Source of the DNA: Siphonodentalium dalli
Lineage: Eukaryota; Mollusca; Scaphopoda; Gadilida; Siphonodentaliidae
Direction of reading: 5' to 3'
Length of the DNA stretch: 64,000 bases
Assembly (NCBI GenBank): GCA_032622095.1
Contig: CP136065.1
Span: 207,492,151 to 207,556,150, forward strand
The translations under genes and the position numbers were made by a program. Of the stretch, positions 424 to 50,898 are shown piece by piece (position 1 is the stretch's first letter; every line of letters starts with the position of its first letter). Under the pieces are notes generated by a model. That model saw only the letters and a list, made by a program, of their open reading frames with translations. It did not search any database and was not told the origin of the DNA.

Positions 424-3299
424 ATTCTTCTACATATTAGGCTGCTTTGGGGGACATTCGTGATGGTGCGGCACAGGTCGATAATGAATGTTGTGTTGTG
501 GAATGTCGGTTTCTTCTTGTATTGGCCGGATTTGCATGTCCACAATTATTCCCAGAGTTGCGACATGAAACCAGCTGTGATTTTAAAGTGGATTTTGTGG
601 AAAGTTCGCATATGTTTGCCTTATGAAAGGGAGATATATCTGTTTTCATTCCTGTGAAGAGATTCTAGGATGGTCGACGCATGCAGGTATGGAGATTCGG
701 TCTCCCTGGATGCTTATACCTGTACGGAATATATATGCTGTTTGTTTCTGTACTGCCATGTATACTGGTTGTCATAATCAACTATATTGATTTGGAAGCT
801 AACAAGTTCATAAGAATAAAGGATAATAGTAATTGAATAATTAATCCATTTATTACACGACATTCTATAGTAATCAGTTGAACGTGAGGAGTACTAATTA
901 CACTGCATGCATTGCTTGGTTTACAGGCGAGTCCGTCACGACAATCGCAATACAAGACTTGTCGAAGTTTACCAACATCAACATGGCAACAATTCGCACG
1001 CATAACGAATTCGTACCATGACGTCACGAGTCGATCACGCTAACAACGCTGGACACATTCCCAAAAATCAACGATGGATCATTCCATTGTGTATATTTAA
1101 ATATGAATGGAATAGAAGAATTCATTTTAGCAATCAAAGTGTTAAAATGTCGAATTATTGTGTTTGCCCAGAATCATATACAGCAGGCGAAAACGAAAAT
1201 TAGTCTATATATACACACATGGTTACATGGTCCTGCTAATGTTGGTAGGTTCTGCTGCTTTACATGTGTTGTTGGTGATGTCTTTGGCTGATCCGAAAGA
1301 CTCAAAGAAAAGTCATCATCTCTATAAAACATTCACGGGTATATATAATTTGTCTTACACTTTAGTTATTTTTCCTCAAATAAACGTGAAACACCTAGGC
1401 GGTTTCCTATCTTGTATCATGCAACAAGTCGTATTCTGGGTGGCAACAGTGACTGCGCGTGAGCTGCGGAGAGACTGGCTTCGTTTGTAAAAAAAAAAAT
1501 ATGGTTATATATAAACCGGCCAATTGGCATCAATTAGTCCTGTAGTTTTCAACATATCGGGCTGAGACATCTAGTATATCAATTTAATTAAATCGTTTGC
1601 GATGACAATGCCCAAAACACTAAATAAAATCGGTTGCATTTCACACAAAAAAGTATTGTTTTGATTTGGTGCGTATAATTATTCGAATCGATTTGGATAC
1701 ACTTGATCGTTGATGACGTCAATCTTGATGGTGACACACCAGGACGTTAACGTAACTGTGCGGTGCGATATCCATATACGCTCAACGACATAGTTCTCAT
1801 AAGATATACTACCTTTTAGTATAAAATTAGAAATGTCATTTTGAGATGCACAGACAGTGGAAATAGGACACAAACATGAGTGAATGACATAACGAAATTA
1901 TGTATAGTGTTGCAATATACAAATTATATATTGTCGTTTAGTTATCCATTCGACAACACGGAATTTTTATGCAACAAATATATATTCTGTATCCCCTGGA
2001 AATTTACTGATACCGTCAGATGCACTTTGTGAGATACATGCCCATCTGATGGTTTGCCTGTGTCATCCTGGTAAGATAATAAGCTTTTCAATGAAAACAT
2101 AAATTCGGTACAAAACGATTATCTATACTCATATATCTGAATGAACTCAGCGTGTGCCTCATAATATCATATATGAAGTAAAACCATATCTCAATAGAAG
2201 TGATCGCCCACCGTGCGCGAGAGTAAAGCAATCTATTTCCAACGAATTATGCACGGTGCTAAATTTGTCCCATTTACGTCATTCAAACCGGACACCCCAC
2301 TTAAAACATAAGAGATTTGTTATATTTGAATCAACTTAGCGTTTTATTCGTCGACTCAAAGTCCTTAGGGTGTTTGACTGCTAAGGTAGGTTATGCTACA
2401 TAGTAGATGTTATCTCACCTGTATTTTTGCATATACCATCGCTTGTGTCATGCAAAGATCACACGACAAGGAATTATCCATTAACGTGTTCGCAATACTA
2501 ATATCCATGTAGCGATTAACTTTCAACGAAAACAGGACTTAACATATCCACACTATAAGGGTTGAAGAGAAAACGAATTATTAAATCCAAACGATCAAAT
2601 AATATGCAATTACTTCTCCCCTCTTAAAACGCAGTCGTCTGCTGTGAAACACGCGGGTTGGCACTGACTCGCGGAATGGGACGTGAACCATCTAGCCGGT
2701 AATCACACACTCAATGGAAGCCGATAAGTGAGGCTTGCGTTCAGTTTATACTTAATAAATTGAATACATCCCCTGGATGGTGTCCCGCGGCGAAACGCCA
2801 CAGGATAACATATAGAGCTTTGAGCTTATCTCAAAAACAATGGCTCGAGATTATTAAAATCGTCTCGTCGCATGATGAATACTCTCTCGGAAGTTCGGGA
2901 TATGTGGTTCGCTTCTTTGAACCCGTTCCGACTTTTTAGTTCTTCCATTTGGTCTCTCGAGGCGGTATTGGAATTATGTGTATCAGCCACGCAATGTGTC
3001 TCCAGGGAGGTCGTCGGATCGCTTTAGTATACGTCTCCGGTGTAGAAGGCGTATCGCGAACATGGCGGACCGAACAAGCTCAAATAAAACCGACAATGAA
3101 TGACTCGATCGTGTTTGAAAGATGCATCATCCGATGTATATGTCATTGTAACCGTTACATTCACGAATAGAGCACCATCGAATACCACAAGACAAGAAAT
3201 TACACGGATAAAATGAGTTGTGAGCTGTTGGTTGGGTGTATGATAAACACAAAACCGCACATACTGTCGGTGTTAGTAGTCGTTAGTTTATTAGTTCAG
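424..3299. other. No gene recognised
   Basis: Only short chance-sized frames occur here (110 codons at most, 1158-1490, with no recognisable motif). There is no tandem array or clear transposon end apart from the MITE before it. Confidence 0.5.
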
Positions 3300-3707
3300 G
3301 CGATATGTGACACAATTGATATAATTGTGAGAAAAGCATGAAACTTGGTACATATGTATATTAGGTCCCACTGATCTTTTTAAGATGTGGAGGCAGTCGT
3401 GTAAATCCCTTCCTTAGCAACGGTTGCTAAGCAACGGTTTCCACCTTAGCAACGGGTGGGTAGGAGGGCTTAAACCATCATTTTACCTACATCTATAGGG
3501 AAATATGCATGTATGAGTATTTTAAATGATAGAATACATGATATAAACCAATATTTTCAGCATATTTTGATTAAATTTCTTTAACATATCAAAATTGACC
3601 GCCAAACAGGTCAATATGCAGGATTTTGTTAAAAAATCAAAAAAAAAATCTATAAAGTCAATAATTTGGGCCATAATTAATTAATATTGTGGTTGGGAAG
3701 GCATAGT
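3300..3707 (+). repeat. Left terminal inverted repeat of the 5.9 kb transposon
   Basis: This matches the reverse complement of 8785-9205. It contains several short inverted copies of AGCAACGGTT around 3415-3455, and it ends at the GGTTGGGAAGGCA block near 3707. Confidence 0.85.
3423..3435. promoter_or_regulatory. X-box-like palindrome in left TIR
   Basis: GTTGCTAAGCAAC fits the RFX X-box pattern (RYYNYY, 1-3 bases, RRNRAC). The right TIR has the equivalent palindrome at 9060-9072. It could bind the transposase or a host RFX factor. Function is inferred from pattern only. Confidence 0.35.
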
Positions 3708-4250
3708 GATGATATATGCATGTATTAATATTGTGCCCATGTAGTATGCCAACTAGTTTGAATAAAATTACCATATGACCAGTTTGGTTACATACCGGTA
3801 TTATGAAAGTTAATATTAATTGTTGGTGATATTAGTGAAATGTATTGTCAAAATTTCAATTTCATTCTAATTGTGTATTTATTATATAATATAATGTGGT
3901 ATTTGCTAATTAAATTGATTAGTTTTATCCAAATATCAGTTTTGTAATATATGCATTTGTCATACTTCTGGGCTTCCATAGTCAAACACATGCTAATTGA
4001 AAGTTCACATGGTGGGCTTTTTGAATCCTGATGACTATTTTGTGCGGATTTTCAAATAATACGAAGGTAAGTGACAAGTATTATTGATATATATATCCCA
4101 AATTTGTCATAGCCACACACTAGCAAAACAAATGCCAGAATAAATATTGATAAATTGCAATTAAGGCAAAAAAAAAAAAGGGGTTTTGATTCTCGGGCAA
4201 TTTTTGTTTAGAATCGATAAGGGAGCGAGGGTTTTATTTTTATTTTTGTT

Positions 4251-7200
4251 ATGGAGATAATGCCCATAGTTAGCATGGGTTATTATAACATCCCATCATT
4301 GAGTTGTTATCACAGTGGTCGTGATGCATATCTCGCCTTCAACGACGACATTGGATTAGTATTGCGCCATGGTTACGACAACGATCGCGATGAGCAGATG
4401 TTATCAATTCGCAGGATAGCCAATGCGATTAGGAAGGACATTTTCGCCACCGAAACGCAATTCGATGGATCGTATGACGTCCAAAGACAAGTAAAATCAG
4501 TTCCACATTCACTGCTGGCATTGATGAGCATGGTTATATATGGTACTAATATCGAAGAACAGGTTCAAGATCAAATATCTTCAGAAGAAGACGCAACGAC
4601 AAAAGTGTTGTTGATGTGAATTATAGACACAATCCACAACGCACTCCACCAATACCAGTTTATGTCGGTCTTAAGTTACATTCCTCAACAAGACAAGAGA
4701 CAGTTGATTGACAGTATGTTCGCACTGGGCATCTCGGATTCCTATGACCGGATAATGGACATCATCATATCTCTCGGCAACACAGTATGTGACTATTACA
4801 ACGAGATTGGTGTTGTCTGTCCGCCACAGCTATTACCTGGAAACTTCATCACAGCTGCTGCCGATAACATCGACCACAATCCAAGTTCGATGACTGCGAT
4901 GTCGTCATTCCCATGGCACTGGTAAATTGCCATTTCAGAACATAGACGAAGGTGTACAAATAAGAAGCCAGAATTCATCATTTTCTCATCAGGTGAGAGT
5001 GATAAGAAAACGGAGACAAATGTCAGATCTACCCATTGGCTACACAACTGTATCTTCTGCATTTCTACCAGATGGCGATGTTACTGTCCCGATATGTGCA
5101 ACTGAGTATACCAGTTGTGATGTAGTAAAGGCTGACATTAGCGCGGAAGTTGATTGGTTAAAACATGTTGACCACTCACTTGGAGAATCAGAAACAGCGG
5201 AACACCTCTCTTGGTCTGCTTTCCATGCAAACAGATTGACCCAGCAACATGCTATCACATCCATAAACGCGATGCTACCACCATTTACAGAGGAAGCGTC
5301 ATCTGTGCCAATGGTCAAGCACTGCATGAAGGTGATAATGGCAGCCATAGAGCATTCTAACCCAGGTCAGACTGCTGTCACATGTGTGGACCAACCACTA
5401 TATGCAAAAATGAAGTCCAGTGGGCAGATGACACCGATGTATACGGAGAAGACAAATGCGTTGTTTTGTTAGGTGGATTACACACCGAATTAACTGCATA
5501 CAAACTCTTAGGCCATTGGCTCGCTGGAAGTGTGTGGATAGAGTCTCTATCGGAGGTGGGAATTGCTACTCCTGGAGTATCGGAATCATTCCTTGCAGCA
5601 TCACATATCAAGAGGACCGGACATGCTCACCGGGTCACTGCCTGCTCACTGTATATCCTTATGAAGAGGTCATACAACGATTACCTTGTATATAACATGG
5701 ATGATGAGGAACTAACGTTCGAATCATGGTGTGTCCATAGAGCAAAAGAGAGCCCCCAGTTTAATTTCTGGGGGACAACCTTAGACTTGGAACTGCTAGT
5801 ATTGGCATTCATACGGTCGCTGCGAACGGGCAACTTTACGTTGTATTTGGATACTCTACAGGAACTCACACCTTGGTTTTTTCCATGAACCACGTTCACT
5901 ACGCACAATGGATGCCTGTGCATATACGCGATATGCGCAACCTTACTCTTACACACCCATATGTAGCTGCTGAATTTCATGCCGGCAAGTTTGTGATTAA
6001 GAAAAGCAACCGCATATTCTCAGTTATGTCTATCGACCAAGCACATGAGCAGAACAACGCGGTCATGAAGTCGGATGGTGGAATAATTGGTCTCACACAA
6101 GACGGTGATGCGCTCAATCGGTGGGCAATGGCGAGTGCAGAAGTAGTACGTTGCATAGCAGAATTTGAAGCTTCATCCGCATGTCACATTAATGTTTCAT
6201 CAACTACAACGTATCTACACCATGAACAAACCAGATCGCACCAAAACAGATTTGCAGTCCACGTGAAATCATTAACCAGTGCAATAGAAGCATTCGGAAA
6301 CCCTTTTGCAGAAGACAGCAAGTACCTGATACGACTACATTCGCGGGACATTATGCCACAAATCAGCGTTGAATGCTTGTCAAATCTACCTGCAGCCCTC
6401 TCTCGGACACCATCAAAAGAAACGACGTAACACTATTCGCACAACATCCACATAACCCTTCAACTAAAGGAAAGCAAACTGTTGTTGCTCTTCTTAAGAG
6501 TGAATGTGCCTTGTTTTCAAAGCTGTACATCGCTTGCCAAACACGACAAGGGGACCTGGATAATTTCTTCAGCCATGAACACCAGTCATTTCCTGTTGCA
6601 TTATCCCAGGGTGGACGACTCAGATTTGGCAATAAATCTGACTTGATGTCATGCTTGGAGCAAATTGTAGCTGCCCCGACGCAGGACAGACCACCAACGG
6701 GTGTAACCATCTTCGATGGTGCGGCGCTTGTAAACATACCCGGACCAAGAGACTGCAAGACCTTCCTGGAGTATGCCACAAAGATATTCATCCCGCATAT
6801 CCGATTACAGTATGGATTCGCATGTCGCGTGGATATTGTCTGGGATAGGTACTTTGGTGACAGTTTAATAGCACAGGCGAGGGATTCGCGGTGTACTGGT
6901 CCAGTAAACATTATTAAAGTGTGTGCTCTCACACCAATTCCCGGCAAATTGGCTGAATTCCTGCAAGTGCCCAGCAACAAGGAGCAGTTATTCAAGTTTT
7001 TAAACAATCAGTTGCTAAATCAGATTGGTGACAAAGAACTCATTGTCACAGAAGACGAAAACATCAAGAGCAACCCGATAAGAGATCCTGGTCGACTGGC
7101 CCCATGTAACCATGAAGAGGCGGACACTAGAATCATGGTCCATGTCGCAGATGCAGCGTCTAATGGATATCGGAACTGCCTGATCAGGACGGTAGACACC

Positions 7201-7908
7201 GATGTACTGGTGCTTGCAGTATCCACGGCGCACATCTTGGATAACATGAATTTATGGGTGGCTGTGTGGACAGGTAAAGACTATCGTTACATCAACGCCT
7301 CTGATATCACCAAGAGTCTGGGACCAACTCGATCAACGGTATTACCGGTATTCCATGCATACACTGGGTGCGACACCGTTTCTCACTTCGCGCACATCGG
7401 GAAAAATGACAGCATGGCGCACCTGGGACATATACTCTGGGGTAACCGACGCATTTAATGCATTGCACTCTATTCCTACTAGCATATCGGATGACACCCT
7501 GAAGATGTTAGAGAGATTTGTCATTCTTATGTACGATCGTTCAAGCAGCAGTTGCAACGTTAACGAAGAGCGGAGGCGGTTCTTCACGAAGAAGAACAGG
7601 CCAATGTCACGCTACCACCAACAAGAGCCTCCCTGAAGCAGCATGTTTTGAGGACAGCACTACAGGCGGGCTATTACTGGGCTAACCCAACTCAAAGCTC
7701 ACAGACCATTCCGTCCGCAAGTGAGTGGGGCTGGACCGGCCAGGATAAGTGGTCACCGCTCTGGGCCGACCAGGGCCAGGTGCGCGACAGCTGTACAGAA
7801 CTGATCAAGTGCAAGTACAGGAACCATTGCGTCACCTGTAAATGTACACACGCCAATCAAAAGTGTACAAAGTTCTGCACATGTAAGGGAAAATGCCAGA
7901 ATGTCTGA
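4251..7908 (+). pseudogene. Transposon-encoded protein with EADTR/TVDTD motifs and CXC-like C terminus (broken)
   Basis: Pieces of one protein follow in order in different frames: 4251-4619 and 4662-4925 (same frame, in-frame TGA at 4617), 4927 to ~5408, ~5400-5880, ~5873-6400, ~6400-7408, ~7409-7595, ~7596-7908. I recognise the series from long uncharacterised cnidarian and mollusc proteins. Motifs are ADNID (about 4860), VDQPLY (5383-5404), GGLHTEL (5471), IDQAHEQNNA (6032), ACQTRQGDLD (6535), HEEADTR (7111-7131), TVDTDVLVLA (7189-7218) and HAYTGCDTVS (from 7357). A tail with nine cysteines resembles a tesmin/TSO1 CXC domain. HEEADTR, TVDTD and GCD, in that order, recall the XPG-I acidic motifs and the following helix-turn-helix; this is inference. 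There are six frameshifts and one stop; three shifts lie in short homopolymers (5404-5409, 5877-5882, 7411-7415). It is probably the element's transposase or nuclease. Confidence 0.8.
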
Positions 7909-7913
7909 ATAAA
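7908..7913 (+). promoter_or_regulatory. Polyadenylation signal overlapping stop codon
   Basis: AATAAA begins on the last base of the TGA stop at 7906-7908, so the element's 3' untranslated region would be very short. The same arrangement is repeated at 10085-10090. Confidence 0.55.
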
Positions 7914-8140
7914 ACATTGATAAATGTGACTTTCTGTGTTTGTATTTGGTTTGGTGATACTAATGGGTGGCGAATTTGGGAAACTACTTTATTAATATAT
8001 CAATAAAACAAAGAACACATTGTGGTATTCTGCACAAACAATCTCACTTGTTGTCCAAGTATAAATTAAAATAGCACCAAACATACAACTGACAATATAC
8101 ATTATTTCACGAATATCACAAAATATAATGCTCATATTAA

Positions 8141-8690
8141 AGGGGTACTGTACGCCATTTTCATAAAATTTCCGGTGACAACAACGATCTAATATCGATA
8201 ATATATAGAAACATAAGTAATTTGAGTCGAAGAATGACGAAGATGTATTCTGTAAACGCTCAGGTTAATAGGCTATCTTAAAATTTAATAATTTAAAAGT
8301 TAATAATTTAAAAGTTAATAAATTGAATTTATGACTGGAGCCATAAAATGGCGTCAATTAAATTACGAATTACCGTAATCAAAAATAGTAATTGAGAATT
8401 TGAGGGATACTGGATTTTTAAACCGATCGCACACACGATTGCTTACAATAACTTAAATGATTATATGGGACTAGTATGCATATAATATAACTTTTATTTG
8501 ATTCATTTGGTTGAAAACTTTACAAAAATTACTCGACAACGACAATTTGTATTTTTGCATTCCGGTAAATTTGTCATCCGTAACATGACTTCGTACTCAA
8601 CAGACTTTCAAATAATGGAAAATTTGTTACCTTATTCTCCGACTCGGAGACTATAGAAACCAACAACAACATTTGGCGTACAGTACCCCT
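8141..8690. mobile_element. TTAA-flanked MITE nested in the transposon 3' region
   Basis: Ends are AGGGGTACTGTACGCCA and TGGCGTACAGTACCCCT, perfect inverted repeats flanked by TTAA at 8137-8140 and 8691-8694. It is about 550 bp and AT-rich with no coding frame. TTAA duplication is used by piggyBac and Kolobok elements; the AGGGG end differs from the CCCTTT families in this window. Confidence 0.85.
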
Positions 8691-8784
8691 TTAAATATGA
8701 ACACAATATATATACCACCTGGTAAATGTATTCAAGCTAGTAGTTATAAAACATGGCCAAACATCTTAACAGATGTTTACATAA

Positions 8785-9205
8785 TACTCTGCCTTCCCAA
8801 CCACAATATTAATTAATTATGGCCCAAATTATTGACTTTATAGATTAAATTTTTTTTTTTTTACAAAATCCTGCATATTGACCTGTTTGGCGGTCACTTT
8901 TGATAATATATTAAAGAAATTTAATCAAAATATGCTGAAAATATTGGTTTATATCATGTATTCTATCATTTAAAATACTCATACATGCATATTTCCCCAT
9001 ATATGTAGGTAAAATGATGGTTTAACCCCTCCTACCCACCCGTTGCTAAGGTGGAAACCGTTGCCTAGCAACCGTTGCTAAGGAATGGGTTTACACGACT
9101 GCCTCCACATCTTAAAATGATCAGTGGGACCTAATATACATATGTACCAAGTTTCATGCTTTTCTCACAATGTTATCAATTCTGGTGTTTTTTGTCACAT
9201 ATCGC
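8785..9205 (-). repeat. Right terminal inverted repeat of the 5.9 kb transposon
   Basis: This is the inverted counterpart of 3300-3707. It contains the palindrome GTTGCCTAGCAAC at 9060-9072. A duplicated copy is present at 10962-11382. Confidence 0.85.
9060..9072. promoter_or_regulatory. X-box-like palindrome in right TIR
   Basis: GTTGCCTAGCAAC is the partner of the left-TIR palindrome at 3423-3435 and is repeated at 11237-11249 by the duplication. It differs at one base from the left copy but keeps the X-box pattern. Confidence 0.35.
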
Positions 9206-9797
9206 TTGCACTATATGGCACTCTTGCGGTCGTGTATGGGTGGTATTATGACTCTGGTTCCATTCTTACCCTATAACAGTCCTGATATAAACTGGCTTCC
9301 AGACAAAAGTATGGGGCTGTGTGTGTAGCAACGGTATAGCACGGTTACACTCACGCATTAGTTGTCCTGTATGAAAGCTGGCATATATGAACCGATTTCT
9401 ACACCATATACATGTAGTTACGATATATATCTCCAAATATAACTGTTATTCCTCCATTCTGGAGAGTGTCAATATATTACACAAACTGTACTTGTATCAT
9501 GATATATGCAAATTCATAGTAATTGAATATATACAATAACACGCACGAGATGCTTTTCCAAGCGACATGCTAATTTGACGATAACTTAACAGTTCACTTT
9601 TATAGTAGAGAGAAACAAAAAGGCAGCTTATAGTTCAATTGAATATCTAATAGTCGATGATTCTGTTTGGTGGGTATTTATCTTGGTATAGATTTGCAGG
9701 TAATATGTAAGTGTGTACATTCTGAACACGAGTATGCTAACGGGAATAGAGCCTGGACGTTCCTCTACTTTATCGCCGATTATAGCTTGTATATGTG

Positions 9798-10085
9798 ATG
9801 ATGGATCACATGAAGCAGCATGTTTTGAGGACAGCACTACAGGCGGGCTATTACTGGGCTAACCCAACTCAAAGCTCACAGACCATTCCGTCCGCAAGTG
9901 AGTGGGGCTGGACCGGCCAGGATAAGTGGTCACCGCTCTGGGCCGACCAGGGCCAGGTGCGCGACAGCTGTACAGAACTGATCAAGTGCAAGTACAGGAA
10001 CCATTGCGTCACCTGTAAATGTACACACGCCAATCAAAAGTGTACAAAGTTCTGCACATGTAAGGGAAAATGCCAGAATGTCTGA
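9798..10085 (+). pseudogene. CXC-like domain fragment with start codons from the duplication junction
   Basis: The tandem duplication re-creates the last 90 or so codons of the transposon protein without its upstream part. Flanking sequence supplies in-frame ATGs at 9798 and 9801, and a third at 9810-9812 straddles the junction itself. The result is a short open frame of about 95 codons carrying the SEWGW segment and the nine-cysteine tail in the native reading frame, ending at a TGA that overlaps AATAAA. Whether it is transcribed cannot be told from the sequence; it is most likely an inert duplicate. Confidence 0.6.
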
Positions 10086-10317
10086 ATAAAACATTGATAA
10101 ATGTGACTTTCTGTGTTTGTATTTGGTTTGGTGATACTAATGGGTGGCGAATTTGGGAAACTACTTTATTAATATATCAATAAAACAAAGAACACATTGT
10201 GGTATTCTGCACAAACAATCTCACTTGTTGTCCAAGTATAAATTAAAATAGCACCAAACATACAACTGACAATATACATTATTTCACGAATATCACAAAA
10301 TATAATGCTCATATTAA

Positions 10318-10867
10318 AGGGGTACTGTACGCCATTTTCATAAAATTTCCGGTGACAACAACGATCTAATATCGATAATATATAGAAACATAAGTAATTT
10401 GAGTCGAAGAATGACGAAGATGTATTCTGTAAACGCTCAGGTTAATAGGCTATCTTAAAATTTAATAATTTAAAATTTAATAATTTAAAAGTTAATAAAT
10501 TGAATTTATGACTGGAGCCATAAAATGGCGTCAATTAAATTACGAATTACCGTAATCAAAAATAGTAATTGAGAATTTGAGGGATACTGGATTTTTAAAC
10601 CGATCGCACACACGATTGCTTACAATAACTTAAATGATTATATGGGACTAGTATGCATATAATATAACTTTTATTTGATTCATTTGGTTGAAAACTTTAC
10701 AAAAATTACTCGACAACGACAATTTGTATTTTTGCATTCCGGTAAATTTGTCATCCGTAACATGACTTCGTACTCAACAGACTTTCAAATAATGGAAAAT
10801 TTGTTACCTTATTCTCCGACTCGGAGACTATAGAAACCAACAACAACATTTGGCGTACAGTACCCCT
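10318..10867. mobile_element. Duplicated copy of the TTAA-flanked MITE
   Basis: This is the element of 8141-8690 copied with the 2177-bp duplication; it is not an independent insertion. Confidence 0.85.
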
Positions 10868-10961
10868 TTAAATATGAACACAATATATATACCACCTGGT
10901 AAATGTATTCAAGCTAGTAGTTATAAAACATGGCCAAACATCTTAACAGATGTTTACATAA

Positions 10962-11382
10962 TACTCTGCCTTCCCAACCACAATATTAATTAATTATGGC
11001 CCAAATTATTGACTTTATAGATTAAATTTTTTTTTTTTTACAAAATCCTGCATATTGACCTGTTTGGCGGTCACTTTTGATAATATATTAAAGAAATTTA
11101 ATCAAAATATGCTGAAAATATTGGTTTATATCATGTATTCTATCATTTAAAATACTCATACATGCATATTTCCCCATATATGTAGGTAAAATGATGGTTT
11201 AACCCCTCCTACCCACCCGTTGCTAAGGTGGAAACCGTTGCCTAGCAACCGTTGCTAAGGAATGGGTTTACACGACTGCCTCCACATCTTAAAATGATCA
11301 GTGGGACCTAATATACATATGTACCAAGTTTCATGCTTTTCTCACAATGTTATCAATTCTGGTGTTTTTTGTCACATATCGC
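10962..11382 (-). repeat. Duplicated copy of the transposon right TIR
   Basis: This is copied with the 2177-bp unit. The window therefore has one left TIR and two right TIRs, so two nested element sizes (5.9 and 8.1 kb) could in principle be excised. Confidence 0.85.
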
Positions 11383-12735
11383 TTGCACTATATGGCACTC
11401 TTGCGGTCGTGTATGGGTGGTATTATGACTCTGGTTCCATTCTTACCCTATAACAGTCCTGATATAAACTGGCTTCCAGACAAAAGTATGGGGCTGTGTG
11501 TGTAGCAACGGTATAGCACGGTTACACTCACGCATTAGTTGTCCTGTATGAAAGCTGGCATATATGAACCGATTTCTACACCATATACATGTAGTTACGA
11601 TATATATCTCCAAATATAACTGTTATTCCTCCATTCTGGAGAGTGTCAATATATTACACAAACTGTACTTGTATCATGATATATGCAAATTCATAGTAAT
11701 TGAATATATACAATAACACGCACGAGATGCTTTTCCAAGCGACATGCTAATTTGACGATAACTTAACAGTTCACTTTTATAGTAGAGAGAAACAAAAAGG
11801 CAGCTTATAGTTCAATTGAATATCTAATAGTCGATGATTCTGTTTGGTGGGTATTTATCTTGGTATAGATTTGCAGGTAATATGTAAGTGTGTACATTCT
11901 GAACACGAGTATGCTAACGGGAATAGAGCCTGGACGTTCCTCTACTTTATCGCCGATTATAGCTTGTATATGTGATGATGGATCACAAGGGGTGTACAAA
12001 TTGTTGCCAGCTGAAATGGGAGTTTACATGTATTGTTAACTTGTTACCAGCGAGAACCCCGAATTAGATTGCACATGTGGATAAGAAATATTGCAAAGTC
12101 CATAAGAATAAAGTCCCGGACCAAGACCATATTCGCTCCCTGCAGTAAGGTGAACTCCCAAGGAGGAACGAGAGACATTCTTCTAATGTCAGCATATCCA
12201 AGAAGTTGTAAACGTAAATTCATGTTTTTGTCGATTATTCTTTCCCAAAAGACATTACGGAAATGCACCAAAATGTTCGCTTTTCATAGAAACATCGCGT
12301 GCGTTAACTCATCTCTGTAGACTAACCCACATAGAAAACAACATAGTCTATTATCATATGTGGATTTGGTAAGGTTGAATGCTGTATGGGTGTATGACTG
12401 CCTTCGATTGGCGACGGTTGTTGGATAATAGTGTCCATATCGGCCATGGGCATAGCGGTTCTTTGTGGCATTTCCAGAAGAACTGTAGAGTACTCTATCT
12501 GGAAACTGTACACTTCCATTCGGATGTGCAGGCATCGCGCACCTTCGATTTTAAAATGTTGTCCGGGTATCCTTAGTGGGGAAAGTACCCTGTGTCCAGA
12601 TAGTCCATCAAGAAGGAAATCAAACCATATATAGGTCTCTAAGAGTAAAATCCTTCACATAACCAGTACATTGTCTATTGGCACAGATCTTACAGCATCA
12701 TAGCAATTCAGTAAGACGCCAACATCATAGTAATG

Positions 12736-15157: not shown

Positions 15158-16189
15158 TGTGACTACCAATGGCTAGAAAATAACTGTCATCAGACCAGTG
15201 CATCAATTAAACTAATCAGTAAATTATGTGCATGTCTATGAACTCAGATCATATGTTACTCTTACAACACCCAAAGTAGCCAGGTCTGGCATAGTGACTG
15301 CTTGTCATTTTAGTATAACAGAAGTTGCTACAGTAGACTAACAAAAGTGGTATGGAATAATGCTAGATAATGGGTTGGTTGACATACTTATCAGGAAATA
15401 GTTAGAAATTATGGAATTGTGCTGAATTTTGTGTATCGTGCACAATGACCTAGGTTTGCAGATATTATTATAAATTATATTTTCCAATTGCAGCCTGGTA
15501 AATATTCTCTCTATGTATTTATTTTCAAACTATGTAAACTCTAGTTGAATTGGAGATTAACAACTGATATGTCATGGATATGTCTACAAAATGTCATCAG
15601 TAACTCAAAAGTCAAGATAGAGTGCACTGTCCTGAGATGTTATCAGCTTAATATGTATTACAGCCAAATAGCCAAAAACACATGATCGGTGGATGTAATA
15701 GCTTGTGCAATTGGGGAAATTATATCTCACTGGATATGCAGGGGATATGCTGGGATTTGTATAATTTGTTTTGTCAAATTGGATGCAAATAGCTTATACT
15801 TGTGTTTTATGTTCACCTATCAGTTTATGATGGGTTACTGTATTTGTCCACTACATCGATGCCGTAGAATTTCCATTTAGGAGTATCGAATTTGACCACC
15901 TATAGAATACTCTCATCACACATCACTGACCTGTAAACTCCAATGCATGTATGTGGTACATGTAGACAAATGCATATCTGTCAGTATTTGGAAAAATCTT
16001 TACATTTGCCTGCATTAATCATTTATTTTGCAATTAAAACAGCTTCTGAAACATGTTAAACTGACATTTGAACTAAAGGAGCTCATTCCCGAGTCATGTG
16101 AGTGATATCAGTAGGGTTTTAGACCAACATTAGTGAAATTTTTGGGCGGGGGTGTCAAAAATTTGGGAGTAAATATTGTCTCACATATC
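15158..16189. other. No gene recognised
   Basis: AT-rich sequence with only short frames and no repeat structure that I could match elsewhere in the window. Confidence 0.5.
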
Positions 16190-16565
16190 CTCTCGGAAAT
16201 ACGCACATAATCGACATATGATGTGAAATAGGTACATAATATGATTATTTGATTTTGAAATAAGCAGATAATGGACTCTTATCCGTTATTTCGCTTTATG
16301 ACACGGGCCACAGTGAAAACACACGTTAAAGAGCGTACACCTGAAAAGTCGTGAGTTGGCATATTTATGTCATTGTGCGCACATAATCTGTTTGGAATCG
16401 CCTCATTATGAGTCGATTATGTGACTAAAATGTTCTCATTTTCAGCACATTGTCGACTCAAAATGAGGTGATTCTAAGCAGATTACCCAGGATTATCTAC
16501 CTAAAACAAGTTTTATTATATCAGATAATATGCTGGTTTTCGGGAGAACAGGCTGTGCCAATAAT
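16190..16565 (-). repeat. Dispersed repeat R1, copy 1
   Basis: About 370 bp, matching in inverse orientation the repeats at 23997-24363 and 50527-50898. Shared landmarks are CAGCCTGTTCTC at one edge, ATTATCTGCTTA, CCTCATTNTGAGTCGAT, ACTCACGACTTTTNAGGTGTA, and a GCGTATTNNCGCGA-like other edge. The interior is an imperfect palindrome with no clear TIR. It is probably a non-autonomous element. Confidence 0.75.
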
Positions 16566-23440: not shown

Positions 23441-23444
23441 CAAT

Positions 23445-23945
23445 CGTTATCTCTGTGTTGCTACGACCGTTCGGTATTCTATCGTTATCTCTGTGTTGCT
23501 ACGACCGTTCGGTATTCTATCGGTATCTCTGTGTTGCTACGACCGTTCGGTATTCTATCGTTATCTCTGTGTTGATACGACCGTTCGGTATTCTATCGTT
23601 ATCTCTGTGTTGTTACGCGACCGTTCGATGTTCTATCGTTATGTCTGTGTTGCTGCGATCGCTCCGTATTCGATCGTTATCTCTGTGTTGCTACGACCGT
23701 TCGGTATTCTACCGTTATCTCTGGGTTGCTACGACCGTTCGGTATTCTATCGTTATCTCTGTTTTGCTACGACCGTTCGGTATTCTATCGTTATATCTGT
23801 GTTGTTACGCGACCGTTCGGTATTCTATCGTTATGTCTGTGTTGCTGCGATCGCTCCGTATTCGCTCGTTATCTCTGTGTTGCTACGACCGTTCGGTATT
23901 CTATCGTTATCTCTTTATTGCTACGCGACCGTTCGGTATTCGGTT
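23445..23945 (+). repeat. 38-bp satellite array, ~13 copies, with 5-unit higher-order repeat
   Basis: The consensus starts CGTTATCTCTGTGTTGCTAC and continues GACCGTTCGGTATTCTAT. Variant units (TTACGCGACC, then TGCGATCGCTCCGTATTCG) recur together 192 bp apart (23611 and 23803), giving a five-unit higher-order period. All three plus frames stay open through the array only because the unit lacks stops. I do not consider it protein-coding. Confidence 0.9.
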
Positions 23946-23996: not shown

Positions 23997-24363
23997 CCAG
24001 CCTGTTCTCTCGAAAATCCGACCATTATCTGCTTACAATATAACTTATTTAGGTAGATAATCTGCTGAGAATTGCCTCATTTGGATTCGATAATGTGATG
24101 AAAAGCGTTTTAGTCACATTATCGACTTATAATGACGCGATGCTAAGCAGATTATGTGCGGACAATGACAAAAATAAGCCAACTCACGACTTTTAGGTGT
24201 ATGCTCTTTAACATGCATGTGTTTTCGCTGTGGCCCGCTCCATAAAATTAAATAACAGACATGACTCCATTATCTGCTTATTTCAGAATCAAATAATCAC
24301 ATTATGTACCGATTTTACTTTATAGGTCGATTATTGCGTATTGGCGCGAGTATATGTTGCAGC
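23997..24363 (+). repeat. Dispersed repeat R1, copy 2
   Basis: Collinear with 50527-50898 and inverted relative to 16190-16565. It runs from CAGCCTGTTCTC to ATATGTTGCA. Confidence 0.8.
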
Positions 24364-35229: not shown

Positions 35230-37636
35230 TTATTTCTTTTTTGGTGGCAACGTGTGTCCAGTCAAAGATCCGAAGCTAAGCGCTTTCGTTCCACTGTTTG
35301 ATCTGGACGATACTGTTGTCTGTGAAATAGTTGTGGCGGTACACGCGGGTCCGTATTGTGCCAGGGTTGGGTTTGTGTTTAACTCAATGCGGATTCCTCG
35401 TTGCTGACAGAACGTGTTTTCTATTAGGTCGGAGTTAAAATATTTCGGGACAAGGCTGTGCTTTCCATCGATTACCTTGTCGCACAATAAAATAAAGCCA
35501 AGCAAACTGGAGTTTATATAATTATGTCCTTGCGTGTCTCGTTCGTTATTAGATGTTTTCCGTTTATTTTCAACTTACTTTGTGTAACTTCCTTCTCCCA
35601 CTTCCCAAAAAAGTATAAAATTGCACGCAGATCACCCAATCTTTCGTCTCGTAAGCTTATAATGGGGGTTATGTCGGTAAAAATCTTGATTAACGTGGAT
35701 GTTTTTTCTAAGAATGCAATGGTTGAATCGAAGTCTGCTCCATTTGGCTGTGTTTGTCGGTAGCAGGACATTAAATAGAGCATGTCGCGATCTAGAACTT
35801 GAGTAGCCAAATTATTACGCATTTTTTATGTGGATGATAGGTCGATATGTTCAAGTGTTAATTTATGGTGGATACCGGATTCTTGATTATAACGGTACGC
35901 GGCCAGCCAATGATCCCATAGTATTTGTCCCCCCCCCCCCATTTCCAGATATCTGCCTTTTTTCTTTTGTGGTCCTCCCGACTTGATTCGACGTTATTCC
36001 GTACCTTTTTTATCACATGCATGATATCCTGTATTGTGCACACTGTAGCAGAAACGTCGAATATATTTTGCGTGATATACATTTGTGCACGGAGAGATGT
36101 TCCAATCCCTTGGGGAAATTGTTTTAGTGAGAGATCGGTTTGTCGAAGCTCCGTCAAACATTACATACTGCACTTTAAAATTGTGCTCGTCCAGTTTGTC
36201 GATCGCTTCCCAAAAGTTAACCACCAGCTCACTGGCCGTTGCGGTTGTTGAACCGAAATATCCCACTGTCCCTGACTGTCCAGCGAAATCCAGTGTAGCC
36301 TTGGAATACAAATCGCAATGCATGTGTTGCAAGTTTTATGTTTCTTTTTGGACACATATATGTCCATTTCATTATTATGCTTGCCCATGTCTGATGCCCC
36401 TACCAATTTCCACTCAGTTCCTTGCTTGACAATCTGTATATCCGACTGAATTACCATTTCGTCTATGAGCAACCCACCCTGCATTCCAAATTCTGGTATG
36501 GTTTGTCTCTTCGCTTCTCCCGCCATCCATTTTAAATTATCCTCGTTAAACCCGGGTTTTTGTTTTATTGTGTTTGTATACATCTGTAGCAGCCTCTTAG
36601 ATGGAAGCCCTAGCATGCCGGACGGGGCCATGTCGTCGTATGCACCAGGGGAGCGACATTAAAGTCCCAGGCAAAACAGAGATCACTTCTGGGCTCCACC
36701 GTCGATGATATGTATAAGTTGGTCTATTAGTAGTATTGACATCTTTTCAGAGGCTCCCATCTCTAGCACTTTCTCCACTACGGCCAACATGTCGTTGTGG
36801 TCGTTTTCGGCGAGTTGGATATAATCTGATGACTCGGATGGCTCAGAGGAATTTTCATTTGTATTCTCGATCGAAGATAGGGGCTTTCGCTTCCTTGATT
36901 TGGTTTGGTTCATTTGTTGTTGCTGTTGTTCTTCTTGTTTTTGTTTTTCTTGTTGTTCTTTTTGTTTTAAGTTCCACCTGCGCTTCGCGTTGTTAAAGAC
37001 ATTCGTGCACGTTTTGCAATGGACTTCATCTGAAGCTGAAAGAGTTTGAACAATTTTCAAACACCCTTTGGATGTTGCACGCATTTGTCCTTCTCTGTTG
37101 GTCACATTCCGCCAAATCTCACGGCACCATTTCCTCTCAAACTCAACTTCTTTCGCGGGGTAACCTTGACACAACTTGACGTTCTCAAGAAACTAAATCC
37201 AGCCAGTTGTTGGATTTCTTTGTAACACATCAGTAATACCCAGGGATAATGTTCGATCTCTTACGGACAAATGATCGATTTGGCCAAAGTGTAATTTTAC
37301 AGTCTGGTGAAGGCCGCCAACCGACCTGATTGTTGGGCATGTTAGAACCAATTCTCCCGTGTCACTCTTTGTAGCGGTGCAATGTTCTGGTATTTCCATA
37401 TTATCACACCAATCTTCACATGTTCTGCTCATGTTCATCAAAAGAATGCGTTCCTTGCCATCGACATACTTTTTTTGTTTTGTCGGGTTAAACATTGTGT
37501 GTAAAACCAGTGACACTTGCATTTTTGACGGACGTGCCATGTGACACTTCTCAAAATCATCCGCACACATTTCAAACAGATCGTCGATTTTGACAGTGGC
37601 ATTGCTATCTTCACAGCGTTCATATTTGATGGACAC
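35230..37636 (-). pseudogene. P-element-like transposase relic
   Basis: On the minus strand, pieces follow N to C: 37636-37193 and 37174-36683 (same frame, one in-frame TAG; the second has a Gln/Lys-rich coiled-coil-like stretch and a basic SRKRK), 36631-36161 (same frame again after two stops), then 36332-35994, 36157-35858, 35822-35514 and 35505-35230 in shifted frames. Motifs are GGLLIDEM (about 36460), YFGSTTATASELVVNFW, YVMFDGASTN (about 36155), MRNNLATQVLDRDMLYLM and NSDLIENTFCQQRG (about 35420). Their order and the three acidic positions fit the RNase H-like domain of P-element/THAP9-type transposases, which cut and rejoin element ends. I saw no THAP zinc finger and no terminal repeats. 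It is clearly dead in this form. Confidence 0.75.
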
Positions 37637-38019
37637 CCTGAAAATTTCAAACTAGATCTATAACATGTTTCAAAGCTAATCTAGTCGAAAGAGATTGTTG
37701 GCTCTTTCTGAGAATATCTCCAATGGCAGTCATGGCGGTAGGGTGTACCAAAACACAAATTTAACCCCATATCGCCGCCAACTATATAGTAATGTTGAAT
37801 GCCTATAATCTGCCTGATAATTTTTAAACTCTCATTCAACTTTGAGATTTGATACTGATATACATTTTCTGGAGTTATAATTTATGTTGATAAGCATGAT
37901 GGTTTATAAATCACCTGGCTCCCCACAACAATCGACACCATGACCCTGGGCTCCCAGTGTTATTTTTTATTTATTGTCGACTTTGTTTAGGTGCAATGGG
38001 TGGGTTCTGTTTAAGTGGT

Positions 38020-40346: not shown

Positions 40347-43300
40347 ATACAAATATATATATATATATCTTTAATTCCTCCTTGATAGAAGATCATTACA
40401 AGAATACATTGAAACAAATTAAAGAAACAGAAGCAAAACATGAACATACCATAACCCAAAAAAAAAAATATGTTGGAGAACAAAGATATAGAAATATATA
40501 CTAAAGCAGTCATTCATCACCGCACATACACCGCACATTCGCGCCATACAAACACAAAACCACATTCGAGCACAGTCACACCAATTCGCTCACAGATTAA
40601 TGAACATTATGTACAAGACTACGGAAAACCACACGCTTTGAGCACATACACATACGCACGCATGTACAAACTCTCACATACACACATATATCCACATGAC
40701 TCGCAAATACGAACAAAACTGAAACCCACTAATTTAGTGGCGGCCACAAACCCCCTACCCGTACGGACTGAATCAGCTGTATAGACTCATATTTGTATTA
40801 TCTTGTTAGAAAGCTCCAAGAGAGCTAAGACAACACCATTCAATTCTTATATTAACTAAAGAACATATTTACACTAAAGGATGTAATCCAAGAGAGCAGA
40901 GTACAGCGCCATCGAGCACATAGTGCATTATTCTGCACAAAATTTGAAGTAAGAGTGCGTTAACAATTACAACGGGGATAATTAACTTCGATAGAATATC
41001 ATTTTTGAAGGAGTTTCCAGAAACGAACTCCATTCATACCAGAAGATTTTTGTTGCTTGGATGAAAAATCGCAGTAAATGTGTTACAGGTATCTGACTAA
41101 TATGGACAAGACCCGGTGGTAAATGACCTAAGAAAAGTGCAGTTTGTTGTTCTATCGGGAGATTGTCAACAAACTGATATGCTGTAACTGGCAAGCGGTC
41201 GATGAACAAATACCAGAATTTATTACGGGTGACTGCCAGTGCTGGGCAGAATATTAAGAAATGTTGAACCATGTCAGTATATGTCATCTGGCATGCAGTA
41301 CATTTGGTTTCGTCTGCAGATGTCGGAGCACACAGTAACTGCAATGCAATGTGGAAGCCTTCTTTCTCTTTGGGATAATACTTACAAACACGCCACATGA
41401 ATGCGATATCTGGACTACTATGCACTAAACGAAATCGTTCAAAAGAAGGGTCACTGTGAATTCGAACCAACCAATCATCTTTCCAAAACAAAGATCCTTG
41501 TTTCACAAGAAGCTTCCAACTAACTTTATTAGGGACGGTGGCAGTTACCGTGTACTCAGACAAGCACTGAGTCAAACCAAATTGATGAAGGATATCTCGT
41601 AAGTCCCTGAAAAAGATATTTCTGTTAGCATTGTTACAATCATGAACACATTGTAATAGTCTGATAAGTGTTTACGACGATGGATATAATGCATTAAATG
41701 AGGAGAACCCAGTAAGCCCAGTACCATATCCGTTCGTGTTCTCATGTGGAGACCTTGAATGTGCTTAAGACACAGGCGGTGAGCACGTTCGAGGCGGTCA
41801 CATTATGTATGTGTTAGCCCACAGAGTATTTCGCTTCCATATAAGCCTTTGGGAATTATAACTGAATTGTAAATTTTAAGGGAACTCATTGGTGTTATTC
41901 CGCCGGCATAAATACCAATATTTGATAGTGCAAAGTATGTTTTCCTCATTTTGGAGCAGATATCTTCAACAAAAGATGCTCTAAAGTTATGTTTTCTGAG
42001 AGGGATGCCTAAGTGAGTAACGCATTCATCTTCATCCACTCGATGTGTACCAAGAAACCAGTTTGTTGTGCGCTTTAGTGCCGCGGTTTTTGATTCATTG
42101 AATACTATGACATGTGATTTAGACGGGTTATATTTATACCTCCACTTTGTACTATATTGCATGCAAACGTCAATTAAGGACTGCAACCCTGTTGCAGTGA
42201 GCGACAGCAGGACCATATCATCGGCGTGTGTCGGACAGCAGCATTTCGCATCCTTCATGACGAAACCATAAACTGAGTTATTAAGCTCGCACAATAAGCT
42301 GTCAATGTATAAGGTATAAAAAAGTGGTGCAAGGGTACTTCCCTGCCTTGCTCCTTGCAACATTGGTATCCAGCGTGAATTGCAGTTTTGGTAGCGAGTG
42401 CAACAATGTATATCATTAAGTAACTTTGAAATAATTATCCACGTTTTGCCCTGAACGTGCTTTTCAAATAGCTGATAAAGCAAACCGTTGATCCACACAG
42501 TTGCCAAACGCTTTCCATACGTCCAAGAAGCAGGCAAATAACATACTTTGTCTCTCGGACGTATAAGAAATACATTCGGTCACCAAAAATGATGTCATAG
42601 AACAACTGACCTCACGCTGAAACCCGTTTTGCAAGGGATGAGGCGTTATCAATGAAGGCGTATAAAGCTCAAGTCTTGTGAGAATTAGTTTCTCGAATAA
42701 TTTGTATATGACAGGCAGCAGTGTTATAGCTCGGTAATTGTCGAAAGAGTCTCTAGGTTTAGAGCCACCTTTATGTAGAGAAAAAATAACACCCTTCTTT
42801 GCTGCGTGTGGAATATACTCCAACTGTAAAAAATGATTGAAAAGACAACTCAGTGATTCGGCTAAGCGGGTACCTCCATAGACAAGGTGCTCATAGTTGA
42901 CTCCATCCAACCCTGATGCTTTATTTAAATTAAGGTGTTTATATAAAGACGTTATTTCTGTTGAAGTTACAGGAAAAGCAATAAGAGCGTCTAAAGGGCT
43001 AGAGGAGGAGCGAGCCGATTCCCTTTCTACAAATTCATTTACATTGGCATAATGTGACTCATCGAATGACGGATCCATTAAGGGAACCGAGAAGATGCTG
43101 CTATAATAATCGCCCCATGCCTCGGCTATCTCGTGTGCATCCCTGATGAGGTTACCATTATATTTGAAAAACGAACCAGAAAGAGTACCAAGCTTTTTGC
43201 GTTTTGCATTAAACAGTCTGAAAAAAGTGTCTTGATAAGATTCTACACATTCATCAATGCTGTTGTTGAACGACTGAAGATACTGTTTAGATGCTCTGCG

Positions 43301-44450
43301 ATAATCACGTCTAAAATTACATTTAGCGTTTTTGTAGTTGGCATATAAGCCAGTAGGATCGTTGATCGGTTTAGCGGCTGCTATCCAAACTGACCGTTGA
43401 TATCTCATATTCTGATGAAGTGATTTGAGATGTTGGGACCAGAATGGCATCAAGAATTTTTTGAAACTCTTGCGAGGGACATTGTTTTCTGCTGATTTGT
43501 TTATAGCTTTATATAATATTGCTATAGAATGACTCCAAATCACTTTGGTTGGCTACAACACTACTATTCTTAGGAAGAGAAGATTCCAAGTCATATTGAT
43601 AGCTTGCTTGTGACCAAGGTTCGTGACGAAATTTCTTCCAGTTTAGCATTGGACGATCATCAACTAAAATAGGCGGTTGATGAACTGACATTAAGGCATT
43701 GATTCTGAGTAACATAGGTCTGTGATTTGACACGTCTAATGCATCATCATCATCTAAAACTTGACAATCAGTGATGAGGTCAGTTGCAGACTCGTGTATA
43801 ACAAAGTGGTCTATTACCGAACCGCTACCTGGTAACCACATAGAGGGCACATGAGTTGCTCGAGGCACAGCACATAGTGATGAGCTATTCACAGAAATCA
43901 AACATTTTCTGGTTAGGAAACATTGTAGGCATTCTCCCCGTGAGTCCCCACGTTGAAGACTGGCATTGAAATCGCCCATGAAAATGACAGTCCCCAGCTA
44001 TATGTGTGCCACAAGTCTTCGAGGATTTTGAAATAGTCCCTAAATACTTCAATAGAGTGATTTGTAGACGGCAGATAAACTTGAAAAATGTAGAAGTAGC
44101 TAGACCCATTGCTCATCTGAATACCAACTATCCGGTCATAATCTAAATCGAGTGGTGAAACTTTACTTCCAATCGTATCACGCCTCCACATTATACAAAC
44201 CACCACCGGAGTTTCTGCCACGTTGCATGGGCAGGCGCTGTGTGAAATCACTGACAGCACAGAAATCATACATTGAATCTATTGATTGAAAATAAAGAAG
44301 ATCTTTCTGGGCTAGCCAATGTTCACTGATCCCACATATGTCTAAATTATAGCGCTGGAGAAAGAAACTCAAATATCTGGCTGACGACATAATCCCTGTG
44401 GCGTTCCAAGAGCCAATAGAGATCATTTTGCTGTAAAGTGAGATACCAAC
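40347..44450 (-). mobile_element. Non-LTR retrotransposon (LINE A), 5' part missing
   Basis: Minus-strand element whose ORF2-type coding region spans 44426-40982, followed by ~630 bp of AC/GT-rich 3' untranslated sequence and an AT microsatellite tail at about 40350-40370. No ORF1 is seen beyond 44430, so the copy is probably 5'-truncated. Confidence 0.8.
40982..44426 (-). pseudogene. LINE A endonuclease-reverse transcriptase, broken
   Basis: The minus strand reads, in order: an APE endonuclease with SWNATGIMS and SEHWL (44426-44290), YLPSTN, MGDFNASL (about 43979), GSVIDHF and SNHRPM (about 43810-43720); an RT with ITSLYKHLNLNKASGLDGV, YRAITLLPVIYKLFEK, PLQNGFQ, FLDVWKAF (42600-42460), GARQGSTLAPLF (about 42350), HADDMVLLS (42230; His replaces the usual Tyr/Phe before ADD) and HLGIPL; LERAHRLCLKHIQGLHMRT (about 41785); and a zinc knuckle CTACQMTYTDMVQHFLIFC (about 41315-41255). 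It would nick target DNA and copy RNA by target-primed reverse transcription. Frame changes near 44220, 43960, 43525, 42500, 41810 and 41650 disable it. Clade not assigned. Confidence 0.85.
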
Positions 44451-50270: not shown

Positions 50271-50526
50271 TCATTCACTTTCTGTTGAGTGTTTACTGAG
50301 GACTTAGTCGTGTGTGTTATTTTATCATTCGCACCGTTCTCTTGTCAGCTTTGTCAACTCAAACCTCGACGGCCACTTCGTGGAAATTGAACGACCATTC
50401 AATCTTCCTGACACGGCGATAACCACGAGGTGATATATCCCATGACAGCTGGAGTATTCTGAACGCGCTCAAACTCTAAAACGGGAATTTATCAAACTTT
50501 ACATTTATCCGAGACTGCGACTTGAC

Positions 50527-50898
50527 AGCCTGTTCTCATAAAAACCGCACATTATCTGCTTATAATAGAACTTTGTTTTAGATAGATAAACTGCTTAGAA
50601 TCGCCTCATTTTGAGTCGATAATGTGCTGAAAATAAGAGCATTTGCGTCACATTATCTACTCAAAAAGAGACGATTATAAGTCGATTATTTGCGGACAAT
50701 GAAACAAATAAGCCAACTCGCGACTTTCAGGTGTATGCCCTTTAACATGTGTTTTCACTGTGGCCCGTGCCATACAACGAAATAACGGGTATGAGTCCAT
50801 TATCTGATTATTTCATAATTAAATAATCACATTGTGTACCTATTTCACATTACATATATGTCGATTATCGGCGTATTGGCGCGACGATATGTTGCAAT
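50527..50898 (+). repeat. Dispersed repeat R1, copy 3
   Basis: AGCCTGTTCTC through ATATGTTGCA, collinear with 23997-24363. Confidence 0.8.

Follow-up and report, generated by a model that had tools for sequence, protein, structure and literature searches.

A decayed DNA transposon with terminal inverted repeats and a putative FEN/XPG-like nuclease region in Siphonodentalium dalli

A window of 64,000 nt of the Siphonodentalium dalli genome (the whole stretch analysed; GCA_032622095.1, contig CP136065.1, forward strand, 207,492,151-207,556,150) contains a decayed DNA transposon, whose terminal inverted repeats (TIRs) enclose the disrupted coding region of one large protein (Table 1; all positions are those of the window). 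On balance, and with some reservation, we favour its assignment as a decayed autonomous element of the AcademX type and thus as a member of an already known kind. To judge from the order and spacing of its motifs, the protein probably carries a FEN/XPG-like nuclease. All statements on the protein derive from a single decayed copy.

Table 1. Features of the element and of its tandem copy
Feature	Position	Strand	Basis
Decayed DNA transposon, whole element, 5,922 bp	3292-9213	+	inverted repeats, TAT flanking both sides
Left TIR, begins TAGTTCAGGCGATATGTGACA	3292-3775	+	inverted-repeat search, blastn, global alignment
Right TIR, TAGTGCAAGCGATATGTGACA when read from outside	8720-9213	-	inverted-repeat search, blastn, global alignment
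Putative 3-bp target site duplication, left, TAT	3289-3291		flank comparison, single copy
Putative 3-bp target site duplication, right, TAT	9214-9216		flank comparison, single copy
Decayed coding region, one large protein (~1,200 aa), start codon inferred	4251-7905	+	ORF pieces, excess of long plus-strand frames
Putative FEN/XPG-like nuclease region	6679-7455	+	motif positions, motif-order test
Motifs of the nuclease region	IFDG 6709-6720; VWD 6838-6846; EADTR 7117-7131; DTDVLVLA 7195-7218; GCD 7366-7374	+	
Cysteine-rich tail, Cys-to-Cys gaps 5,5,2,1,6,3,1,3 residues	7792-7905	+	cysteine spacing
Second, tandem copy of 7634-9810, comprising the end of the coding region, the right TIR and 597 bp of flank	9811-11987	+	identical over 2,177 bp but for one difference

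Boundaries of the element

The inverted arms pair as 3311-3589/8906-9184 (279 nt, 96%), 3587-3642/8850-8905 (93%), 3625-3707/8786-8868 (90%) and, outermost, 3292-3315/9190-9213 (24 nt, 88%). By blastn, 3314-3773 matches 9181-8720 with 91.4% identity over 466 aligned columns. A global alignment of the arms together with their flanks is nearly identical inward from GCGATATGTGACA, the right arm having 10 bp of insertions near its end, and the similarity extends outward to TAGT at 3292 and 9213. A preliminary description of this DNA had proposed inverted repeats of about 410 bp around the coding region; the bracketing is confirmed, but the arms measure about 480 bp and reach 3292 and 9213 as their outer limits. 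Within both TIRs, at 3407-3468 and 9026-9091, there are clustered GTTGCTAAG/CTTAGCAAC units, which may resemble RFX X-box sites.

The similarity of the two arms ends where the left flank closes with TAT and the right flank opens with TAT. The chance of such a 3-bp match of the flanks is 0.017 by base composition and 0.019 by position pairs (1,546 of 83,076), and TAT is likely a target site duplication of 3 bp, as read from one copy. The earlier placement of the protein on a TIR transposon is therefore well supported, as the repeats end at a matching 3-bp flank and the coding region is found only between them.

The breakpoints of the tandem copy (7634-9810/9811-11987) are flanked by bases that show no additional match. 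This copy may be a recent true duplication or an assembly artefact.

Coding region and putative nuclease

Eight plus-strand stop-to-stop pieces span 4221-7905, all of them between the TIR arms. Eight plus-strand frames of at least 100 aa lie in this interval; 500 first-order simulations gave 1.35 on average and never more than 5. The reading frame is disrupted seven times, by one in-frame stop (TGA, 4617-4619) and six frame changes. As assembled, the copy is therefore dead, although errors in the assembly could also account for these disruptions.

The motif order of the protein, D..WD..EADTR..DTDVLVLA..GCD..IG..A, parallels that of FEN1, EXO1 and XPG, in which the catalytic acids lie within these acidic motifs. 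The EXO1 sequence in the PDB reads EADAQ, EDSDLLAFG and GCDYLSSLRGIGLAKA at the corresponding motifs. Counted from start to start, EAD and DTD are 26 residues apart in the element protein versus 21 in EXO1, and DTD and GCD 57 versus 52. The likeness to these Rad2 nucleases thus comprises the order of the acidic motifs, their approximate spacing and the GCD..IG..A motif, whereas significant sequence or profile similarity is lacking and the domain of the element sits in a transposon protein of 1,200 aa. When a 420-aa read-through segment was shuffled, the three-motif pattern appeared in 63 of 200,000 shuffles and the four-element pattern in none of 200,000, and the three-motif pattern is present in one of the 55 ORFs of at least 100 aa in the window, namely the element's own; the shuffle test overstates the case for the nuclease because the pattern, in both counts, was composed after the sequence had been seen.

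The preliminary description had assigned the protein to a family said to be mostly uncharacterised in cnidarian and mollusc genomes, had noted the resemblance to XPG/FEN nucleases and had named profile comparison and AlphaFold as the means of checking it. Motif order and spacing agree with the resemblance, but the hhalign comparison with FEN1, EXO1 and XPG did no better than shuffles: the alignment covers 94 columns, in which DTD, GCD and IG keep their register, EAD is placed on the EAQ of FEN1, two residues away from the EADTR/EADAQ pairing, and 46 of 200 shuffles scored as high. Against five archaeal FEN1s the register was wrong, with 6 of 60 shuffles as high. Two AlphaFold models, each with a single sequence as input, had a mean pLDDT of 33.8 and 33.4, too low for either to be of use.

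The C-terminal tail had likewise been called CXC-like. The likeness is one of cysteine spacing, half of which resembles a CXC (TSO1/tesmin) repeat. With the E limit set to 10, Pfam hmmscan yielded no family for 7630-7905, the filters of the program discarding most matches above about 0.1.

Database searches and surroundings of the element

No significant match was obtained for the coding pieces with Pfam (eight of eight pieces searched) or PHROGs (six of eight), and no match with NCBIfam (five of eight); a DDD/E transposase core was not recognised in the Pfam and NCBIfam searches of these pieces. A PDB sequence search with the element protein was also without significant match. Sub-threshold matches were taken as chance; these were AsiA (E 0.022), Peptidase_C93 (0.13 and 0.11), GSDH (0.16) and DUF5893 (0.19) in Pfam, five PHROGs without assigned function (E between 0.057 and 0.38), and an actin-capping protein (E 0.21) and intimin (E 0.019) in the PDB.

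Three related-locus scans gave 2, 10 and 0 pattern matches in viral contigs, and none was confirmed as a relative. Pattern scans of viral contigs and genome contigs led to the loci L001, L002 and L003, and two further pattern scans of viral contigs were empty. We consider the three loci to be chance matches because tblastn of the 361-aa ORF against the sequence set containing L001-L003 reached a best E of only 0.088. L001 reads as containing phage-like genes; a tblastn search of phages gave no match. Of 14 control genomes, 4 were positive for XPG_I, which was absent from the one genome searched, that of L002.

Outside 3292-11987, which was masked, the window contained no second copy of the element: tblastn gave two matches, at E 0.77 and E 0.78, and the TIRs had no further match at E 1e-3. 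Scans of the window for Rfam families and tRNAs returned nothing. A decayed P-element-like transposase lies on the minus strand at 35997-37651, where two of its four pieces hit the Pfam family TNP-like_RNaseH_N (PF21787), one above the cut-off (E 2e-06) and one below it (1.9e-04). Broken LINE-like frames occupy 40985-44278, also on the minus strand; the one piece scanned, 42467-43552, matched RVT_1 below the Pfam cut-off (E 3.3e-04). In addition, the window holds a repeat of about 370 bp in three copies (16183-16556, 23998-24361 and 50525-50896; 81-83% alike, in both orientations) and a tandem array of units of about 38 bp at 23443-23942 with several frames open.

Classification and alternative readings

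AcademX elements encode an XPG-like nuclease. Excerpts from PMC10045372 distinguish the two lineages of Academ by helicase versus nuclease and give target duplications of 3 or 4 bp for AcademX and of 9 or 10 bp for AcademH, seemingly tied to the encoded helicase and nuclease. According to excerpts from PMC10294476 and PMC10045372, the superfamily is abundant in bivalves; the 100 curated bivalve elements average 5,565 bp in length, with which the 5,922 bp of the present element agrees (PMC10294476). Academ is counted among the DDD/E-transposase superfamilies in the excerpted text of PMC9587614. Terminal inverted repeats are present in our element, and the TAT/TAT of this single copy corresponds to the shorter AcademX duplication, at a chance of about 2%.

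The likeness to Academ/AcademX as given in Repbase is that of a 5-6 kb TIR element with a 3-bp duplication and a nuclease-type domain, by published description and not by sequence; it differs in that a DDE core was not recognised in this copy. Membership in AcademX is likely on the basis of duplication length and element length, compared with the published Academ descriptions rather than with Academ sequences. We call it likely rather than shown because no DDD/E core was recognised. The term 'Academ-like' of the preliminary description is thus in keeping with the excerpted Academ descriptions as regards size, duplication length and the nuclease-type C-terminus, whereas its other suggestion, a new superfamily, found no positive support.

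A separate, undescribed TIR-transposon superfamily outside Academ, with a FEN/XPG-like nuclease on a large protein, would be in line with scanned pieces that match no named family in Pfam, PHROGs or NCBIfam, and with a DDE core that was not recognised, Academ being set beside the element by description only. However, size, 3-bp duplication and nuclease-type accessory domain agree with AcademX in the excerpts cited, and the silence of the profile libraries says little, as these may lack an Academ model; we hold this reading to be unlikely. Another known TIR superfamily, for example a relative of Kolobok, P or MULE, might instead have an unrelated C-terminal domain that resembles FEN/XPG by chance, and neither hhalign nor structure prediction supported a nuclease. 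Yet Pfam detects the decayed P-like transposase elsewhere in the window by PF21787 and nothing in the element, the four ordered motif elements occurred in none of the 200,000 shuffles (with a pattern written post hoc), and the TTAA target duplication of Kolobok is not seen here. Nucleases do exist in Kolobok lineages, and KolobokE, KolobokD and KolobokP share with our element a nuclease added to the transposase (PMC9587614, in excerpt), but the nuclease types differ; we regard this explanation as rather improbable.

Still less credence is given to a bolder proposal, in which a non-Academ superfamily uses the FEN/XPG-like nuclease as the working enzyme or pairs it with a core dissimilar to known DDE transposases, and is the source of many 'uncharacterised' invertebrate proteins. 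A host gene located by chance between two inverted repeats would fit with the lack of a further copy in the window outside 3292-11987, genome-wide repetition not being shown, but the coding region lies entirely between the TIRs and has seven breaks, and a matching 3-bp flank adjoins the two ends of the element, which makes a host gene very improbable.

For the favoured reading, an AcademX-type transposon, the following course of transposition may be proposed. The large protein would bind the TIRs, and a DDE-type core, as expected of Academ, would cut and join strands. The C-terminal FEN/XPG-like domain would trim or nick branched intermediates, and staggered insertion would yield the 3-bp duplication. 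Among the literature matches listed, and in the excerpts they offer, there is no description of this protein on a transposon. If our reading is true, the element combines a transposon protein with a nuclease of the repair type, and similar animal proteins that are annotated as uncharacterised would be transposon proteins, to be masked.
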